Of a DNA stretch of 64,000 nucleotides, positions 1-55,900 are shown in pieces. Position 1 is the first letter of the stretch. Every line of letters starts with the position of its first letter. The notes beneath the pieces are model-generated. The model made no database searches and had not been told where the DNA came from. It was given only the letters and a program-made list of their open reading frames with translations. Both the position numbers and the translations under genes were made by a program. The stretch is from Deuterostichococcus epilithicus (taxonomy: Eukaryota; Chlorophyta; Trebouxiophyceae; Prasiolales; Stichococcaceae): assembly GCA_033439295.1 (NCBI GenBank), contig JAVTLE010000021.1, positions 2,852,009 to 2,916,008 on the forward strand, read 5' to 3'.

Positions 1-1080
1 CAGCAGGTGATGAGCGGTTGCCGCATTGCCTGCTGTTTTTGCAGGCCCAAAATCGAAGGCTGTGGTTGGCCGTCAAGGATCCGGGCTTGCGCTGAGGGTT
101 CACGTGCTGGATTTGCCCTGCTGCAGGTTCCCGGAGGGTTGGTGAGTGGCCGCCGCCGCAGGCAGCGGCGCCACTGCTGATCGCCCACTTTGTGGAAGAT
201 CATAACAGTATTGGTGCAGCGGTGCCAAACGAAGACTAGGCAGACCACTCAGCCAATAGAGTCGCCGGACAGCCAGCCCAATCACATTCTTCCCAGACTC
301 CGGAGCAGATTAGGCATCGTAGCTAGAATATGCCCTAACAGCGGGACATTGCAGAGTAGAATGTCTGCCTCTGCCGCTGATTGAACGCGCCTAAGACGAC
401 CATTGATTCCGTACATGTTTGGGTTTGTGCTGCGGCCTCCCCTTTGAGTGGCCTGTCGTGCACTTGCTGCTTGCGGCGCGCGCAGGCAGCGCGCGCAAAC
501 CCTTGTTCAACGGTATTGCGTGTTGTAAGGTTTGCTTGTCACCGGAATACATGCATCAGAGGAGATGGAGGCATTGCTAGGAGTAGGCCTCTGCATGCTG
601 AAAGCTTGCTCGTCCCGCCATGAACCGGTTCGAACAAATGCGCTGTTGGCTTTCGAGGCAACGCTGGTTACCATGCAACCAGCAAAATCAGGTCCGTATG
701 CTGGCTACTCTAGAGGGCCGAATCAAACCCTTGTTCAGCCCTGCACAGCTGCTTGCGCAGGGCGGTTCTGCATCGTGGGCCATGTGCTGCTGCATGCGTG
801 CGTTTGCTTCTGCAGGGAATGCCCTGATCAGTCCACCAGAGCGTCTCAACTCCCCGTCTGCAGATGCCGCTTGGTTTTGCACTTGCTTCGAGGCACCTGC
901 CTGGTCGCTGCTACTGCCGCCGCTCAACTACTTGAACATGCCAATGCCCACGCGCCTCTGGGTCTTAACGCTGACTGCCAGCATCGCCGCTGCCCGCACT
1001 TGTCGTGAAGGTGTTCTCGGCGCCGGCGAATCCAGGCCCTGGCAACAGGCCGCCAGCGTAATGCCGCCGCCGCCCGCACT
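1..1080. other. Left-edge spacer, 3' flank of eRF3
   Basis: No gene is recognised here. Open frames of up to 158 codons exist on the plus strand but carry no family motif and mostly begin with non-ATG codons. The stretch holds the 3' flank of the minus-strand eRF3 gene. At 992-1025 it carries a second copy of the sequence around the eRF3 stop codon (1072-1111), offset by about 80 bp. I see no TGTAA-type poly(A) signal on the minus strand. Confidence 0.5.
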
Positions 1081-1111
1081 CTAGGACGTCGTGAAGGTGT
1101 TCTCGGCGCCG
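992..1111. repeat. 80-bp-spaced direct repeat across the eRF3 stop codon
   Basis: The segments 992-1025 and 1072-1111 share a GCCCGCACT block followed by about 25 matching bases that encode the last eRF3 codons on the minus strand. The functional copy has six extra bases next to the stop codon. This looks like a tandem duplication of the 3' end of the last exon. Confidence 0.8.
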
Positions 1112-4100
1112 CCGCCGCCCTTCTTGCCAGACGGCAGCTTGATGATCTTGCCGATGGCGATCGTCCTGCGAGGCAGCAGTGTGTGTGCTTGTCAGACCAC
1201 TTCACGCAGCACAGGGCGAAGCCTGGGCGGGCGGCGCCTTTGGCTTCAGTGGCGCGGCAGGCCGCCCGCATGCACCCCTCCGCATCGCTTCCCACGCAGC
1301 CCTCTGTGATGCACTGCATCAATGCACTGCCTCCCCCCCTCACCCTCTTCTTCCGAGCCTCGTTCCTACCGAGCCTTCCGCCTGCCCACCTGCCCTCATC
1401 GCGCAGCGTGAAGCGGCCGAGTTGCGGGACGTTGGAGAACAGCTCCACGCAGATGGGCTTCTCCACCGCCAGCTGAACGATGGCTGCCTTGCCGCTCTTC
1501 ACGAACTTGGTCTGCGGCCGCAGAAGATGACAATGTGATGAAAAGATCAGGAAACGCAATGGCTACCGGCAGAGGGTCAACGAAAATGGTCGACGTCCAT
1601 GCCGTCTGATGTGAGGATGCACTCGGCTGTACGCTGTCGTAAAAGGCCTTGCGCCGGTTGGTGCCTTGTCTGCTGACCACTTGTTGACTGTCTCAGAGCC
1701 CCGCCACCGTGGCACCAACCGGCGCAAGGCCTTTTACGACAGCGTACAGCCAAGGCAGGGGGGCTGATGCGTGCCCCAGAAAGACGGCTGGACGGCAGTA
1801 TTGCTGCAGCACGGATCCTGACAGGCAATCTGCCAGCATAGACGCCAACAGGGAGAAGGGCGAAGTGGCAAAGTGGCAATTCAGCCTCGTTCCCTCATGC
1901 GCACCTTTTTCTTGGTCTTAGTGCGCGGGTCAATCTCCGCGATCATGGCAGTGCACTCACACTCCTCCACCACGCTGTGGATGTGCAGCACGCACTTGTA
2001 GCCGGCTGAGAAGATGGGCGTGTGCTCCAGCAGCTCCAGCACCTGCGGGGGGTGCAGGGTTTCAGCATTTCGCAGGGTTTTGCAGGGTGTCAAGGTTGCG
2101 GATGTGTCGAGGACTGCGCCCGGGTGGTGTTGGGCTGCACTGCGAGGGTGCGACGCCAACCAGCTGTCTGCCCCTGGACCCGCAGCAGGGCGAGGCTGGC
2201 CAGACGGGGTGCTCGAGCCGTCCCTACGGCAGGTGACGAGGAGAGCACGGCCACACGCAACTTGGAACAACTGCCATGAAGGGGGTCGCAAAACCTCTGT
2301 TGTGCCAAGGGCCGGCTTGACCGACGCCGCTCTGAGGCGCGTGCGGCAGGTCATCAAGCGGTGGCGGCCTCTCTGTTGCGGATATCTGTCAATGGAAGCA
2401 GGCAGTCACCTCTGCCCCCTGTCCCCAGAGTTGCAACGAGTTTCGGTCTAGAACTGGCATGCAGCTTCTTCTGGGATGTTGGCATTGCACAGGATGAAGC
2501 AGGGGTGACAAGGGAGGAAGCAGTGCCAGGAAATGTTACAAACCTCGCCTGCAGCTGCGCGTGGAAGTATGTAATGGTGGGGACCACTATTGAGGTCGCA
2601 CACCGCGAAGCTGGGGGGAATGCAAGTACAGCAGACGCCGTTCCCATAACTCGCCTGCAGCTGCGCCTGGAAGTAGGTGACGGTGGGGACGACCACGTTG
2701 GGGTCACAGATCACGAAGCCGGGCTGCACGTCCTCCTCGTCCACGCCTGTCAGGCGCAGCCGCAAGTTCTCGCCGCCGCGCGCCGCGCCCACCTCCGTCT
2801 CGTCGCAGAAGATGCTGGACACCTGCACCTTCATCCTGCGCAGGGGAGCGAACCAGCGCTCAGGATCTGGGGCGGGGCCGCGGAAGGTGCTGGCCACCTG
2901 CACCTCCATCCTGCGGCCGATCCTGAGCGGTGGAGGATTTAAGGGTCTATGTCAGGCGCGATCCGCGTCATCCCTACAAAGCTGCACCTCGACCCTGCGC
3001 GACAGGGGCCGGGGGTCAGCGGCGTCAGCCATCTGGTCTGGGGCCCAACAAGCCACTGGCTGCCAAACAAGTCACCGACCACACGCTGCGCCGATCTGGG
3101 CCGTTGCGGACACGCCTCAGGAGTCCAGGACGACTTAGCCAGTTGGACTGAGCCAGCCAAGAACGTCCAACCACTCTGCTGCTCCAATCTGGTCTCAGGC
3201 TGGCGGTGGCCGGCAGGCGGGAAACGACGGGGGGCGCACTTGTTGGGCATGAGCAGCAGGGTATCGCCCTTGCGCACGCAGCCGGCCTCGCTCTTGCCCA
3301 TGACGATGGTGCCCAGGTCCTTGAACTTGTCGATGACCGCCATGCGGAAGGGCGCCAGCGGGTCCCGGGGCGGCACATCCGTCGCGTCCAGCACCTCGAA
3401 CAGCGTGGGGCCCTTGTACCAGGGGCTGCGGCGGCAGAATGGAATGCTTAGGTGATGTTCTGTGCGTCTCTAGTAGCCAGAGCTGGTGGCCCGGTGCGCG
3501 GCAGGTGCCGTGGAGGGTCCACGGCGATGCCTCCGCCACATCCTGCACCTCGCACAGCTTGGGGCCCTTGTACCAGTGGCTGCAGCGGCAGATCAGAACA
3601 GGGCATCAAGGGCTGCGCTTGGGAGCCGAAGTGGACAAATGGGGCTTTTGGACGAGGTATGGACAGCTTTGCGGCGGTGTGCGCGGCAACTCGTGCCAGA
3701 TATTTGTACTCCAAGACTTCAGCACCTCATCGCACTGTTGTGACACGTTTTGTTACATGGAAGAGAACCTGGAGCCTGCAAACATTTAGCGCTTGTGACC
3801 AGTGTGGACGGTGGCGCGTACCAGGTCTTGGTTGCGTCCACCGGCTTCTTGATGTTGTCGCCGTACAGGCCGGAGATGGGGACGTAGGCGATGTCCTTTT
3901 TGGGGTTGTAGCCGCACGTCTTAAGAAAATCCGTCAGCTTTTTCTGCGGCAGAAGCAGGATGGCAGTCAGCTCGCTTCGGGGCGAGTGGATGATGTTCCG
4001 CTCTAGGTGAAAGAAGGCATGCAGGGTTGAGGGCGGTGCGGTCTCGTGATGCAATCCCATGAGGGTATCCGGGTATCCACGAGCTCAGAGGAGGCCGCTC

Positions 4101-6795: not shown

Positions 6796-7088
6796 ATCGA
6801 TACAGGCCTTGTGGTGGCTGCAAAGGAAGGAGACGAGCGGCATGGCTACTTCGTCGGTCTTCACAACTGGCGACTTCCCAGCTGCCAGATGGAGCGCATA
6901 GTAGGACATCTGGTCGCAGAGGTGACCGTCGCTACGGCACAGCTGCGTTGCGGTGGATCCTCTTCTCCCTCTCTTCGTCTACATTCCACAGCATCTCCGA
7001 TCGTCTCATCCAGTGATCATCAGCCGAGTCTACAAGTTTTGCCGGCAGACGAGTCTTCAAATCAAGTTGGTTCTGCATCGATCTTTCA
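6796..7088. promoter_or_regulatory. Bidirectional promoter region eRF3 / AKR1
   Basis: Only 293 bp separate the two divergent start codons, so both promoters and 5' UTRs must share this stretch. I see no clear TATA box. The eRF3 frame stays open up to 6909, so an upstream eRF3 start inside this interval cannot be excluded. Confidence 0.5.
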
Positions 7089-9962
7089 ATGGCGCCTGTT
7101 ATCCCGACCCGCCCGCTGGGTGCCCAGGGCCTCCAGGCATCTGCTCAGGGACTTGGATGCAGTACGCTTCTCCTGTCCCCTTGTCATTCGCCGGGGTGCA
7201 CTTCATGTTTCTGAGCTCCACGGTCATGCATCAGCCCGCCGACATGTCCGAACGTCTGTGGTGAAACCAAGAATGAGCTCGCGATCTGCTGCAATCTGCG
7301 TGTGTGCATCATGGGCCGCGCCACTGCACCTTGAATGCTTGTGGTCGCCTGCAGTGGGCATGTCAGCATTTTACACTGCCGGAGAAGTTTCGGAAGAGGA
7401 GAGTTTAAAGGTCATCGCCCGCGCCCATGAGCTGGGTGTGACCATGCTCGACACCGCGGGTGCGGCCTGGCATCTCTGCATGCAACTTCTGCTGCCAAGT
7501 GCCGAAGTCGCACCTGAAGATGTTGGGACGAGGCCCTTTTTCCGTGTTCCTCACGGATCGCCTTCGCTTTGCAGATGTCTACGGCGTCGGCAAAAACGAG
7601 CGCCTGCTTGGCAAGCGCGCTCGCACCTGACTGTGATTTTGATGTTCAAGCATAGCTCACCCTGCATACGTCGCATTGTATCCTGAACAAAGCAACATGC
7701 AACACGGACTGAGCAGAGAGCGTTTGCTACTCGCAGCCAAGGCGCTGGCAGGCGGAAACCGGGACAAGTATGTTGTTGCCACCAAGTTTGCCAATGTCAT
7801 CAACGCTGATGGCACGATGAGCGTCCGGGGCGACCCTGAGTATGTCAGGTAAGTGCTGCACACTCAGCCCTCACCCCTCCACTCTGGCGGCTGCACAGGC
7901 GGCTTATACGGCTTGACCACAGTTTGACGCGACCCTCTGTGACGCCCTGCAGGCAGGCCTGCGAAAAGTCGCTGAAGGACCTCGGCATCGACACCATCGA
8001 CTTGTACTACATGCATAGGATGTCGGACACTCCCATAGAGGAGACGGTGAAGGCCATGGCGGTGCGTTTGCCGGTGCTTTCGCCAAGGTCACCCCCTCCC
8101 CGAGTGCAAGCGCGCACGTGCATGCGTGGGCGCCGCAGCTCCGAACCGCTAATCTGAATTGCATGTGTGCTGACGAGAAGGGGGCAACCAGCGAGAGTCA
8201 GTGACCTTGGGGAGCGCTGCGCTTACTGAGGACAGCATGCTCGCCGCCGCACCGCAGGAGCTTGTGAAGGAGGGAAAAGTTCGCTACCTCGGGCTCAGCG
8301 AGGTCTCTCCAGAGGCGCTGAGGCGGGCACACGCGGTACGTCGACGGTGATGCGCTTATTTATTGAAAGCACTTTCGATAAGCGCTCAATACCCTCGCCT
8401 GCCCTCGACCCATCTGCCAGCTTGTAGGCATTTTTTTGTCGTTTTCGTGCTCGAACTCGAGAACCGTGCGTGCCTACTGTGCCGCAAGGCTCGTCAATAG
8501 CCTCGCCGACAGGGCAGAGCAAGCGTGCCACCCCATCTCCGCAGGTGCACCCCATCTCCGCGGTGCAGCTGGAGTGGTCCCTGTGGGAGCGCTCCGCCGA
8601 GGTGGTGTCTCGCTATGTCTGCTTCAGCCCCACCTAGCGGGCTAACCCTGGAGACCCGATGAAAAGTCTGATGCTGGTAGCCGTCCATGCGCATCAGATG
8701 TGGGCTTTGATACGGCGGCTGGCTATCTCACGCCGTCATCGCTCTCGGCAGGCCAGCGGCTCTGCAGGGAGGCTCCAGCACATCATGCTCGCGCAGTAGG
8801 CCGTGGGCTGCACATTGTGGCTTCAAAATTCTTCATTATGTGAGTGCAGCCATGAAAATCTAATCACCTCATGCCCTGCAGCGTGACGTCGTCCCCGTGT
8901 GCCGGGAGCTGGGCATCGCCATCGTGTGCTACTCGCCGCTGGGCCGCGGCTTCCTGACCGGCCAGATCAAGTCCCGTGACGACCTGCCAGAAGATGACTT
9001 CCGGCGCCATGCGCCCCGATTCAGCGAGGAGAACTTTGACAAGGTGCGAACCTCGACGAGGTGCAGTCCTCAAAAGCCTCTGGCGCTGTCTGTGATTCGG
9101 TGCCACATTCCCTGCTTCAGGGCAGAGTAAACTGAAACCATGCGTCGGGAGGGGAAAAAACCGTCCCAGTACCTCTTACATCATGCGTACAGAACCTGGA
9201 GCTGGTGAGGAAAGTTGAGGAGATAGCGGCAAAGAAGGGCGTATCACCCGGCCAGATCGCGCTGGGCTGGCTGCACGCGCAGGGCGAGGACGTCTTCCCG
9301 GTGCGTCATCTTCATGCAGCTCGAGGAGTTGAATGACTGCCATCAGCTCGTGCCCAGCCTGCCTGTACTGGGCGACGCTGAACTGCAGCTCTGCCCTTCT
9401 CGAGTGCTCGAACCTGCCGGCATGCCCCGGCACATCGCTGATCCTTGACTCTGGATCCAGCACCTCGCCATGAGCTTGCCTTCGTGTCCGGATCGGATCC
9501 CCAGACTCGTGAGGAGGTGGTTTGTTGCGCCCGCAGATCCCGGGCACCCGGCGCCTCAACCGGCTGGAGGAAAACGTCCGCGGCTTTGCCGTGAAGCTGT
9601 CCAAGGAGGAGCTCGACGAGATTGATGCGGCCTTCCCCGAGGACGTTGCCGTCGGCGACAGGTTCGTGGACGTTGTTCACGTCATTCGTAGTCCAGCTAG
9701 CAAGGCTGCGCCGTGTCTGTTATGGTGGAACAGCAGGCGCAGCTGAGGTGTTGCACAGGGCACCCTGTGCTTCCCTTCGAGCTGCGCGCCTCCGACCACT
9801 GGTACTGCGCCATGCTGGCTTGATGCCTGGCATGCTGGCGGAGGGTGTGGACTTGCGGCTTGATGTAGAACAAGGGAGATGCGCTGAGTTGTTTGGTCGT
9901 GATGCGGATGCAGATATCCCGAGGACCACATGAAGTCAGCGCACGACAGCAGGAAGGGCTGA
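7089..9962 (+). CDS. Aldo/keto reductase, copy 1 (11 exons)
   Basis: NADPH-dependent carbonyl reductase of the plant AKR13/perakine-reductase type; the substrate cannot be told from sequence. Exons: 7089-7161, 7355-7459, 7575-7610, 7737-7848, 7953-8061, 8258-8335, 8545-8601, 8882-9043, 9193-9300, 9537-9661, 9914-9962; 337 aa. The catalytic tetrad is visible: Asp57 and Tyr62 (MLDTADVYG), Lys88 (VATKFA) and His130 (LYYMHR). [11 protein letters not shown] and [13 protein letters not shown] are typical of the family and its NADP site. There is no transit peptide, so it is probably cytosolic. Exon 3 ends at a GC donor (GCAAGC). Intron 8336-8544 is missing from the neighbouring copy 2. The start at 7089 is the first in-frame ATG, and the encoded [11 protein letters not shown] matches copy 2. 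Confidence 0.92.
8530..8570 (+). repeat. Short direct repeat at the 3' splice site of AKR1 intron 6
   Basis: The last about 15 intron bases before the AG at 8543-8544 (CACCCCATCTCCGC core) are repeated immediately after the splice site as the first coding bases of exon 7. The homologous place in the neighbouring gene (about 12245-12262) has one copy and no intron. Confidence 0.85.
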
Positions 9963-49365: not shown

Positions 49366-52300
49366 TCACAACGTGTTCAGCTTCGGGTAGTCAGTCGCCA
49401 GTTCATCCCGCGAGTAGTAGTCTCCCTCCTCCTGGGGCGTCCAGAGCACCTCCACCGCCAGCACCTGCAGATGCGGTGGGTCAATGCCTGATGAGAATGT
49501 TTCAGCAGTCTTGTGCATGGCATGTCTGGTGCGACTTGCAGCAAGCAAAGCAAGCCGGCAAGGAGGCACACGCACCTGGTCGGAGCGCAGGGAGCCGAGG
49601 CGGTTGAGCGCGGCGCGCAGCTGCTCCTGGTTGGTGATGTTGGGCACCTTGAGGTCGCCCTCCGACGCCACCAGCAGCGTGACCACGATCAGCTCGTCGC
49701 CAGTGGGGCCCTGGCTGCGTGAGCCGAAGCGGCCCTGCGAGGTTAGGAGACAAATCAGCGGAGCCTACATAGCTCGTGTCCACATGGAGCAGGGTTGATG
49801 CACACCAGGATGGGAGCCACGTCACTCCATGCAAGTCGAACCCACTGACCGCAGCCTCGCCGTGAAAAGTCGAAGGCATGGCTGTAAGAGCAGCTAAGTG
49901 TATCACTCGCACGCACCTGCTCCGAGGTGTTGCGGGTGCGGCCAGACACGTTCATCAGCGTCTCTTCCTGAAACTTGCCGCGCTCCCGCATGGACGCCTG
50001 CAAGGGGAACCGACAGTCACCGTGCAAGCTTCAAAAGTCCACCGATCACGTGCATGGACATGTAGATGCGCAGCAACAGGGGCGCACTGCGCCAAAAGCG
50101 TCATCCCGGTCTTGTCTTGGCTCCAGCGCCAGATGCAGCATGTGTGCTGTAGGTGCAGCAGGCGGGATGCGGCAGGCACGCCATGGCCATCCGGCGGCAA
50201 CAAACACGAGAGTCACTGCAGCATGCATGGCAGCATTGACGCCGAGCAGCCGATGCCCACCTCGTTAAAGCGCTCCTCAGCGGCGTCGAGGCCGCGCACG
50301 CCCTTGGTGCTCGCGGCGCCGTAGATGCAGTACTCCGGGTGCCGCAGCAGCGCCAGCACCGTCTCTGCGTGTGACCAGACATGTTTTGGATCAATCCGTC
50401 TCGGAGGACTGTGTGCCAGCATCTGGAGGGGCTGCTGATCTCCAAGGGATAGGGGAGCCCTAGCTCAGAGCTTGACACAGCATGATGCACTGCAGCTGGG
50501 GACCGTACGAGTGAGGCGGACTCGAGGGAGGGCCACGACAGCAGCCGCGGTTGGACAGCCGTGCTGCCCAGCTGAGTCAGCAGCAACGGCTACGACTGTG
50601 AGCCGCTTGGAGTGCTGCCCACCTTGAAGCACATAGTTGAGGCCGTCGCTGGTGTTGGTGTCGGCACGTTTGGCGATGCGCTCCAGTTCCCGCTTGAGAC
50701 TGATCGCCGTGCCCGTCAGCCCGATCTGCACCTTGGACACTGTGCAGCGGCCATAGCCTGCGGCAAGCAGCACACAGGGGGTGTCATGTGCTCTAGGCAG
50801 TTCTGCGGATCCCAAGACGGAACAGACCCAAGCAGATGCACAGGGCAGCACACGTACAACTCATGCAGGGAGCGCAGGTGCTGCAGTGCCACAAAATAGG
50901 TTTCAAGCCCCTCACCTGACTCATCGGAGCCGCCGCCGGTGAGCTGCGGCAGCAGCTGCAGCGCGGCAAAGCCCAGCACGCCGAGCACGAGCAGAGTGAA
51001 CAGGCCGCCGCCGCCGCCAGTGGAGACCACCGGGGCGCCGTAGCCGTAGCCGCCGCCGTAGCCGTAGCCGCCGCCGTAGCCCCAGCCGCCAAAGCTGAAC
51101 GACGTCTGCGGCATGACGGTGATGGAGGGCGCGGAAGACGCGCCGCCGTAGCCGCGGCTGTAGGAGCTGCCTGCAGGGCGGGCAGCAGCTATTGCCTTAG
51201 GGCTAGTTACGTGTCGTGGGCTGAACGTGGCAAGGCGGGGTGGAGCCGGCGCAGATGGCGTGCGGGAGCGAGCGGGGGCGACGTGCAGGGGCGGCTGGTG
51301 ATGGAAGCGGCCCGCGAGCTGACAGCAGGAGCGGCCCGCGAGCTGACAGCGGGGGCGGCTCATGAGCTGACAGCGGGAGCGGCTCGAGGTCTGACAGCCG
51401 GAGCAGCTCGCGATCTGACAGCGGGAGCGGCTCGAGATCTGATAGCAGGAACGGCTCGCGATCTGACGGCGGGAGCGCTTCGTGAGCTGACAGAGAGGCT
51501 CGCGAGCTGCGCGAGCTGAAAGCGAAGGAGGCTCGCAAGCTTCCTGGGCGCAGTGCCAGGAGTGCATCGCCGCACTCCACACGTGTGATGTGAAAGCTGG
51601 CTTGCAGGGGGTTGCTGGACAATCATCGTGTCGGACAGGCGTCAGTGCAGGGGAGGGGGCACTTGAATGGTCAGCTGCGCACCTCCGCCCGAGTAGCCGC
51701 GGCTGTAGCTGCCTCCGCCTCCGCCGCTGCGGCTCATGCCGCCGCTGTAGCCGCCGCTGCGGGCTGAGCTGAAGGAGCTGCCGCCAACGCGGCCGCCGCT
51801 GCGGGCTGCCCAGGCGCTGTCGCCAAATGGCGCAAATGCCTGCAATCGACCGTGCCATCGCGTCAACATGACGCACTGGATGCGCAAAACATTCCAGCTG
51901 CACCTGAACAGCTGCTCATGCTCAAGTCTCGCAGGTACGACTGACCACGCATGTATGTGCCCACAGCGATGATCAATACCCCGCAGCACAGGTGTCTCGT
52001 CAGCAGTTCTGCAGCTGCGGTTGCACAGAGGCGCAGAACATGACACAAGAGATCGACGAGTCCAGTGCGAGAGGGTGTCACACCATGGCAACTGCCAGTG
52101 CGAAGACGACCGCGCCCTTGGCAAGGCGCTGTCCAAACTGCCACCAGGCCGGAGTCGTCGATTGGTCCTGGGCCGGCGAGGTGACCACCTCGACCTCGAC
52201 CTGATTCAGGGGCTGCACGTCGATGATTCCACCATCGTTCCTGTCACAGTCCGGGAACGGCTGACTGGCTGCCTGCTGCTTGTGCTGGGTTGCTTGGCAT

Positions 52301-52942: not shown

Positions 52943-55900
52943 ATGCTGGTGGAAGGGGCCTGTAGCCCAACGCGTTTCGTTACAGCCAGGCGGATCGAGT
53001 ATGCACTCTACGCTGTGGTGCGCTGCCGCTTTGGCGAGGCTGTCCTGCCAAGCGCAGACCAATCGCTTCCATGCGCCACAATGAATGCACTCTGTGAATT
53101 TTTACCCACTGTGCAGGCCGTCGGATCAGCGCTTGTATCCTTCATTGTCCGGGGCTACAGCTTTTCAGCACAGTTTGATGCAAGCGGAAATCGCGCCGGA
53201 CAGTTGGCGGGCCTACGTGTCGGCTGGCTGCTGGGCCGCAGCAATGTAAGCCTTTAAGCCCTCAAACCCTGGAGCTGCAGCGCCAGCCGCGCGTTGTTTT
53301 TGCGAGACATGTCGGATTCAGCGGTTGCCGAGACAGCAGTTAGGGCTCTGGTGTGATGCACATGACGCTGCATGGTGCAGGATCTGTCTGACATTCAGTG
53401 GCGGATGTTTCGAGAGGGGCTGCCAGCGGCCACGGCCGCCATGACGGCGTTCGCCGCCGCCAGTCGCACGGTGAGCTTGTGCGTCCCTGCCACATGCTGC
53501 CATTTGGCACCTTTCCAGAGCTCGCACGGCCCAGAGGATCCTGTCACGTATACTCGCTGTGCGGTGCATGATGTGGAATTCGCACGACCTATCGCGTACG
53601 ACCTACCGCAGGTCCAGCGTTGGGCTCCAGGAGCGCACACAGCCTTCAGCTTACTCTTCTCGCTGTGCTACATAGGTGAGGCCAGTAGTTGCAGCACGAC
53701 GATGCTTTGTTGACCCTCATCCCGTCACACACCGTCTGAGCGAGCTGGTTTGCGATCCCTCTTGCAGGCTTCCTGCACGGCACGACAGTGCTCTTCCCGC
53801 TGCTGCTCAGTGCCGGTGCCTTCCTGCTGGCCCGCGCCACCGCCGGCACAGCAGTCGGGTGCATGCCTCGGCAACCTGCTCCGCAACTGCGCTTTGCATC
53901 GGCACCACCACAGCAGCTGAGCACTCGTCAGGCGGCCCTGCAGGAACTCGAGAAAGCGCCCTCGCAACGCGCTGGGATTGCCAGAACAGAACGCGACCAC
54001 TGTCTCAACTGGTCACAACTCTGAGCAAGCTCCGCCTCGTTGCAGCCCGGCCTGCATCTGGACATTCGCCTGCGGCAGCCTGCTGGCTGCGCGCGTCTGG
54101 GATGGCGGCAGCTATGGGGCGCTGGCGCCGCGGCTGGCAGCGCTGGACGGCTACAGGTGTGCCCTCGGCGCATGGCTCTTTGCGCCCAGCTGCGTCTGTA
54201 CTTGAGGCGGGGCCTTGTTCGCGTGTCCTGTCTGGCTCGTCCCGCAGCAAGGGAAGCTTTCTGCGCCAGACCTGTCCGGCGCCGCCGGCGCAGCAGCGGA
54301 GGCGTGGTCAGTAGCGATGTCTGTTGCCAGCGGTACTGCTGTGGTCCAGCCTGCATCAAAACCTCTCGTCAGGAAGGAAGCCAGCGTCCATAGATGCTTT
54401 GGATCATGATGTTCGGGGCGTGTGACACTGAGCCAAGCTGCGTGACATGTGCCACTGGACTGGCAGATCGTGCAACTGAGCTGCGGCCACCCAGCTGCCC
54501 GGTCTTTGACTGCGTGTCTTTCGCGGACCACGTAGCGACCCAGGCGCCGAGCGCGTCAGCGCTGGTCCACCTTCCCAGGAGGCCGGCCGCCGCTGGCATG
54601 TAGCACGAACCTCGAGTGTCAAGCCACATTCTGCTTAAATGCCCCACGTAGCTGCTTTCACCAGCTAGACGGCTCTGCAGTACCAGATGACCATGCTAGA
54701 CAGGCGGTGCCGCTGGCGCAGGGGGCCGGTGCGGTGGCACATCACGTACAACCTGGTGCTGCTGCGGCTGGTCAGCTTCGCCATGGACTTGCACTGGGCG
54801 CGGCGGATCGGGGAGGCCGGCGGGAAACAGCAGCCGCTGCAGCAGCAGCAGGGACGACCCGCTGATCAGGACAGCCTCAAGGTGGGTGTTGCAGGGCATC
54901 GCATGAACTGAAGGCTAGACTGGTTTGGCGCTCTGTGCCCACACTCGTACGGACCACATACCCAAGCCAGCCCGTTCGCTGGCTTCCCCTCTCCTCTCCT
55001 CTCTTCTTCTCGCACACCCAGATGTCTGCTCGAAGACACCCGACATGGTGGACCGCGACCCGCAGGCGCAGGCCGTGCCGGCGAGGGCGCTGGAAGAGTA
55101 TAGTGCAGTTCGTTTCTTTGAGTACGTGTTCTACCCGCCGCTGTACCTGGCGGGTCCCACGCTCACCTTCAACACCTTTGCCAGCCAGCAGCGCGCCCGC
55201 CGCGCCATCGGCGTCAGAAAGGTGATCCAACTTAAGCCTTTGCCAGCCAGACGCGCGCCCGCCGCGCCGTCAGCAACACGTGTGCAACGATTGCTAGCTG
55301 CATCTTGGCCTTGCGATGTGTTTTTAGCCTTTGTGCTCCCTCTTGCTGCCTCGAGCCTCAACGACGACGAATCCAAGCATCTGAGATTCCGCGGCAGGCA
55401 CAGACGTCTCTGTGCTGCTGCTGCAGGTGGCGGTGTACGCGGCGAGGTGGCTGGCGACGCTCCTGTGCCTGGAGGTGCTGACGCACACGCTGTACTTCAA
55501 CGCAGTGGCGCGCTTTGGTCTGCCTGCCTGGCGGGCAACGGCGCTGGCGGGCCACCCTGCAGTCACGCCGCTGCTGGCGGCCCTCACTGGCTGGTGAGCA
55601 GAGGGAATCAAGTGGCCAGCCTTGCCCGGTGACAGGTGATACATGGGGGTTGACAGGGTTGACAGTGCTGCTATGGCTGCCGCCGTCAAAGCAACCTCCT
55701 TGCACCAGGTCTTCACCTAATAAAGACTTCTTGGACGCAGGTGGGTGCTGAGCTTCATGTGGCTCAAGTTCACGGTGGTGTGGCGCTTCTTTCGGCTCGC
55801 TGCGCTGGCGGCCGGCGTTGACGTGCCAGAGAACATCCGGCGGTGCTTCGCCAACAACTACGACATCGAGGTCTGCGACGCTGTTCCTGCCGCTGTGGCT

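Follow-up and report, generated by a model that had tools for sequence, protein, structure and literature searches.

Exon sequence repeated in a neighbouring intron is familiar from tandem exon duplication and mutually exclusive exons. Intron content may also be altered in other ways. Gain of introns through tandem duplication of exonic AGGT segments in the genome is an established mechanism (PMC3443670), and introners, which occur as dispersed families, alter the introns that genes carry across a range of eukaryotes (PMC9860276). In humans, small tandem duplications are described as the commonest of the short genomic insertions (<100 bp), and they have been connected with staggered breaks both there and in plants (PMC8355091). 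Lengthening of an intron by duplication of an exon edge was not described among the matches listed in the open literature.

We analysed a window of Deuterostichococcus epilithicus DNA, meaning the whole stretch of 64,000 nucleotides. The gene at about 1.08-6.7 kb on its minus strand is eRF3: the spliced C-terminal half matched the solved structure of eRF3 (4crn) with an E value of 2e-72, against 1.2e-44 for the best EF1A and 7.5e-42 for the best Hbs1. Exon bounds were taken from the sequence, and those of exons 1-6 are approximate. The exons and copies considered below are the following, with a slash marking splice junctions.

977-1028, minus strand: copy of the coding-sequence end and the start of the 3' flank of eRF3, the stop codon being lost in gaps
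1082-1165, minus strand: eRF3 exon 12, the last coding exon, with the stop codon at its end
1618-1757, no strand: near-perfect inverted repeat in intron 10, with arms at 1618-1665 and 1711-1757 of about 47 nt each
2544-2611, minus strand: intron 9 copy of the end of exon 9, GC donor included, with a 2-nt deletion relative to the exon
2655-2835, minus strand: eRF3 exon 9, acceptor CGCAG/GATG, donor CAG/GCGAGT (a GC donor)
2879-2915, minus strand: copy of the exon 9 start, in intron 8, acceptor intact
2919-2933, minus strand: small inverted copy (14/15 nt) of 2853-2867, lying between the copies of the exon 9 start, matched by 0/2000 shuffles
2982-3045, minus strand: further, weaker copy of the exon 9 start with intron flank, its score reached by 2/2000 shuffles of a stretch chosen by the analyst
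3240-3425, minus strand: eRF3 exon 8, donor AACAA/GTGCGC after 3240, its first ~82 nt being the template of the intron 7 copy
3498-3592, minus strand: decaying intron 7 copy of the exon 8 start and 13 nt of its acceptor region, in which the acceptor CAG is preserved
55175-55274, plus strand: second locus of the window, where the downstream intron carries, at 55237-55274, a copy of the exon end 55175-55212 (shift 62, 89%) in an alignment that ends 9 nt before the donor

When each of the 12 eRF3 exons was compared, on both strands, with the introns next to it or the 3' flank, four matches were flagged. Three of them, the start of exon 8 and the start and end of exon 9, had been reported near these positions in the initial annotation, and were recovered: 3378-3438 matches 3532-3592 (87% ungapped identity, shift 154), 2804-2840 matches 2879-2915 (89% identity, shift 75), and 2650-2719, including the GC donor, matches 2544-2611 (shift 106). 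Their Smith-Waterman scores were 82, 54 and 72, against maxima of 27, 27 and 31 among 1000 dinucleotide shuffles per pair, none of which reached the observed score. For the exon 8 pair, weaker similarity extends to 3344/3498 (75% across 95 nt). The additional faint copy of the exon 9 start described in that annotation is also present, at 2982-3045, and is probably older than its neighbour. The fourth match had been overlooked: the end of the coding sequence, 1052-1114, is copied at 977-1028 in a gapped alignment which spans the stop-codon region into the 3' flank. It is the most similar edge copy of all, with an identity of 0.96 over 28 exonic nt. The location of the copies at splice junctions holds for three eRF3 pairs and fails for this one, which sits at the stop codon. 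As for the GC donor of exon 9, it is indeed copied, but such donors do not look rare in this genome: 55/481 introns of the self-trained gene models have one, a count possibly inflated by ab initio prediction. These 481 predicted introns show a strong consensus, with CAG/GTGCG-like donors and YGCAG/G acceptors.

Each eRF3 copy adjoins its template, in direct orientation. The region of the exon 8 pair (3391-3594) has a single genomic match, its own locus, and for the inverted repeat region (1600-1780) the genome offers no match beyond itself and its reverse complement; on these two single-locus results, a mobile element or introner was rejected. Introners form dispersed families, whereas the exon 8 pair region was found at one genomic place only. 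One scan of viral contigs yielded no relative of exon 8, and a trial with a stretch crossing copy and exon in a single frame returned nothing. Intron gain by AGGT duplication (PMC3443670) resembles the present case in that duplication of exon sequence and splice sites alters intron content. It differs in that here no intron is created: one already present becomes longer, and the copy is found next to its template instead of across a newly made intron from it. This route, which would leave an intron end similar to the end of the upstream exon, was rejected for eRF3, where the opposite exon gave no match for introns 7, 8 and 9. There is also a likeness to the small tandem duplications of PMC8355091, a usual kind of insertion in humans as in plants: the copies are likewise direct, adjacent and confined to a single locus, absence elsewhere having been checked for the exon 8 pair region. 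They differ from that class in being mostly >100 bp, old, located at the edges of exons and associated with the length of introns.

A survey was carried out on a sample of 326.6 kb of the 46.8 Mb genome. It included twenty stretches of contig C18, all chosen before the first was inspected (one immediately preceding the window, the other 19 at even spacing), five loci (L032-L036) placed near helicase matches, and four (L003, L005, L006 and L009) that are flanks of EF-Tu-domain matches. An EF-Tu domain-3 match on contig C21 near 95101-95409 (G000) lies in a stretch of 29% GC and is probably plastid tufA, which, taken with the GC richness of the nuclear contigs, would point to a green alga. Introns outside eRF3 are ab initio predictions of a self-trained gene finder, and the eRF3 model was set by hand for the later counts: the gene finder had recovered most eRF3 exons, had miscalled the copies at 3523-3579 and 2549-2554 as exons and had stretched exon 9 across its copy to 2910.

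An ungapped scan for local direct repeats returned five non-simple pairs in the window, four of them in eRF3, and, over 200 kb of that contig, another four. On inspection, the window pair at 55175 and L013:901-943, in a gene with PPR matches, proved to be exon edges copied into the neighbouring intron. A phenomenon confined to eRF3 was ruled out, the same copies being found in other genes. In a first junction test, 10 of 1106 queries scored at least 32 in their own intron, compared with 0 for the reverse complement, for other introns and for shuffles. With more sequence and the corrected eRF3 model, 14/1113 did so (reverse complement 0, other introns 0), and at a score of at least 28 the figure was 20, as against 1 and 1 in these two controls. 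Such a scan of exon edges against introns beyond eRF3 had been proposed as a check in the initial annotation, and over the 326.6 kb sampled its yield was well above controls.

A tiling scan of the 326.6 kb, with 1418 junctions, blind to shifts much above 260, gave 45 pairs scoring at least 32: 22 exon-intron, 2 exon-flank, 11 non-coding and 10 exon-exon. Controls over all classes gave 3 reverse-complement pairs and 1 reversed pair, and repeated local tandem duplication across exon-intron junctions, as first proposed for eRF3, is borne out by this comparison. The 22 exon-intron pairs were distributed as 6 in L035, 4 in L033, 4 in the window (3 in eRF3 and the one at 55175), 3 in L013, 2 in L014 and 1 each in L012, L016 and L019; L033 also has 1 exon-flank pair. 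L033 is a DEAD-box helicase gene and L035 carries a Helicase_C domain; the latter looks Dicer-like. It shows serial copies upstream of the exon at 1125-1273, plus a copy of the end of that exon downstream. Weak pairs (score 28-31, without a control of their own) were found at further exon edges in L033 and L035. Seven of the 10 exon-exon pairs lie in L026, presumably an ankyrin-like repeat gene. Another, 3281-3330 against 3423-3474 in L035, was counted as exon-exon, though it may represent another exon-edge copy that was predicted to be exonic.

We consider it likely, with a probability of about 0.8, that the copies are the remains of short local tandem duplications straddling exon edges, followed by neutral decay in the intron. 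A short tandem duplication (the shifts seen are 62-202 bp) would straddle an exon edge; with one splice junction staying in use, the protein would be unchanged, and the second copy, an exon fragment with a duplicate splice site, would be left in an intron or 3' flank longer by one unit. The leftover copy would then decay neutrally while selection held the exon, so that the template would remain recognisable, and repeated events at a single junction would leave serial copies. The splice site in use would be the one called here as the exon edge, and the DNA event would be either the filling-in of staggered breaks during repair or a local switch of template. The copies are too diverged for unit boundaries to be read at the breakpoints. 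Small tandem duplications are said to arise from staggered-break or nick repair (PMC8355091, which cites Vaughn and Bennetzen 2014 and Schiml et al. 2016).

The manner of decay was examined on 24 pairs, the 22 exon-intron and 2 exon-flank ones. Mismatches at codon positions 1, 2 and 3 were 67/391, 69/397 and 90/389 (0.171, 0.174 and 0.231), and 37 of the 44 alignment gaps, exon and intron parts taken together, were not multiples of three. This is the pattern of a non-coding copy compared with an exon which changes mainly at third positions. Tandem exon duplication, or the presence of alternative coding exons, was rejected on the same grounds, the aligned parts being exon edges; what is copied here is an exon edge with one splice site, and the copy is not coding-like. 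The suggestion that the duplications make cryptic exons is likewise unsupported, the copies decaying as non-coding DNA does and only 8/22 shifts being multiples of three.

The pairs are unevenly distributed. Per 10 kb (35 bins), their mean was 0.63 and their variance 1.89, and 0/20000 random draws were as variable; 26/35 bins were empty, and the probability of a bin with at least 6 pairs was 0.0014, all these figures including the eRF3 bin, which had been picked for its copies. This over-dispersion is what a local mutation hot spot would produce, that is, repeated template switching in eRF3 (and in L033, L035 and L013), with exon edges incidental. The eRF3 gene combines its four direct copies with a mini-inversion and with the intron 10 repeat, which is the sole local inverted repeat (within 600 bases, score at least 40) in the window and 200 kb. 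However, the window had been selected for being striking, lone copies occur in other loci (L012, L016, L019 and window 55175), and the long introns of the copy-bearing genes are a possible cause of part of the clustering. We regard a hot spot of this kind as possible, though on the unlikely side; as a modifier of rate it would be compatible with tandem duplication across exon edges followed by decay.

Copies were present in 21/697 predicted exon-flanked introns, and their frequency depended on intron length: 0/298 below 200 nt, 4/239 at 200-300, 14/123 at 300-700 and 3/37 above, the lack of copies in short introns being partly automatic, since a copy cannot fit into a very short intron. The median length was 424 with copies, compared to 210.5 (P = 3e-8), and when the detected unit was subtracted, copy-bearing introns still had a median of 319 compared to 210.5 (P = 0.02). 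Intron lengthening, the other consequence that had been proposed, thus agrees with the association of copies with long introns in the sample. In the 300-700 nt class, 8/14 copy-bearing introns belong to eRF3, L033 and L035, and elsewhere the count is 6/103; median introns are 388 nt in L033 and 428 nt in L035. A stronger claim would be that junction-straddling duplication is a main route of intron lengthening, concentrated in susceptible genes, and that the copied splice sites are kept as decoys beyond neutral decay. We consider this combination quite unlikely.

Neutral expectations were obtained from a simulation in which random tandem duplications were placed on the same annotation, with uniform ages and uniform units of 30-200, wholly coding duplications being removed; these settings were chosen by the analyst. 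Splice dinucleotides were intact in 16 of the 22 copies, beyond the alignment in 5, and aligned and changed in 1, against proportions of 54% intact, 24% not reached and 21% changed in a second simulation (scores 32-80, identity <0.92; P = 0.06 for intact, P = 0.035 for changed). Such an excess would be expected if the copies were under selection as alternative or decoy splice sites, for instance by giving rise to unproductive transcripts through which eRF3 and further genes are tuned. In eRF3, splicing at the copy of the exon 9 start (2879-2915) would insert 25 in-frame residues without a stop, and the gene finder itself called parts of the eRF3 copies as exon. In contrast, the excess is weak once eRF3 is left out (P = 0.16 and 0.064), its three pairs having been set aside for that comparison because they had been chosen for spanning junctions. 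The codon-position mismatches look neutral, most gaps break the frame, few shifts are multiples of three, and one eRF3 copy lies at the stop codon rather than at a splice site. Splicing at the exon 8 copy would add 154 nt and shift the frame, and at 2982-3045 it would meet a stop codon after 13 residues. Selection for decoy sites is, on this evidence, improbable.

The age distribution of the copies departs from the constant-rate simulation. If copies arose at a constant rate and decayed neutrally, the young should equal or outnumber the old. Among the 22 exon-intron pairs, none reached a score of at least 80, for which 31% were expected (P = 0.0003), 3 reached at least 64 (48% expected, P = 0.0009), and none had an exonic identity of at least 0.92 (23% expected, P = 0.003). 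The cause would be a fall in the rate, the collapse of near-identical copies during assembly, or slowed decay; the last of these would suit decoy sites.

The first simulation gave the exon-intron share to be expected among detected pairs, 0.535 with units of 30-200 or 0.565 with units of 60-200. The observed share was 22/33 (P = 0.09-0.16), and 19/30 without eRF3 (P = 0.19-0.29). Four of the 11 non-coding rows are doubtful: one that repeats the L019 array, a minisatellite at window 51306, and L033:4806 and L035:820, which are matches between serial exon-edge copies. The L019 array, at 7060-7204, consists of about three near-identical tandem copies of a 46-nt non-coding unit with donor-like TGGTGAG motifs, and the minisatellite, at 51306-51493, of about 8 copies of a 24-nt unit. 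When these four rows were dropped, the share became 22/29 (P = 0.012-0.025), or 19/26 without eRF3 as well (P = 0.034-0.064). The junction excess over neutral expectation is therefore modest at most, and the settings of the simulation could also account for it. A process aimed at junctions, either RNA-templated or linked to splicing, would predict an excess of this kind; it would also suit the serial copies at single junctions (eRF3 exon 9, L035 and L033) and the 9/20 junction-test matches of score at least 28 that reach the junction exactly, though the queries were cut there. Against it, the excess is not significant when all rows are counted, several pairs stay similar into the intron (up to 58 aligned nt, in L035), and the exon 12 copy lies at the stop codon. 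We find this very improbable. The duplications had been described as a possible engine of intron change: their repetition is upheld, but not a process aimed at splice sites, as non-coding tandem duplications also occur and the junction excess is modest. An assembly error is scarcely credible, for the copies differ from their exons by 4-35% in the exonic part (24 pairs), their shifts differ, and such pairs are seen again at unrelated loci of three contigs (C9, C18 and C19).

Tandem duplication across exon edges is thus a known type of mutation with a consequence that is little described, and its loose ends are the clustering in some genes, the missing young copies and the possible modest junction excess. 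The process looks like ordinary local DNA duplication, and it may help to explain some of the long introns. The copies constitute a readable fossil record of intron growth, each duplication being dated against the exon as a constant reference. Gene finders can be misled by exon-edge copies, as was the case here with eRF3, and, if the copied sites are spliced, the copies would be a simple source of alternative splicing.
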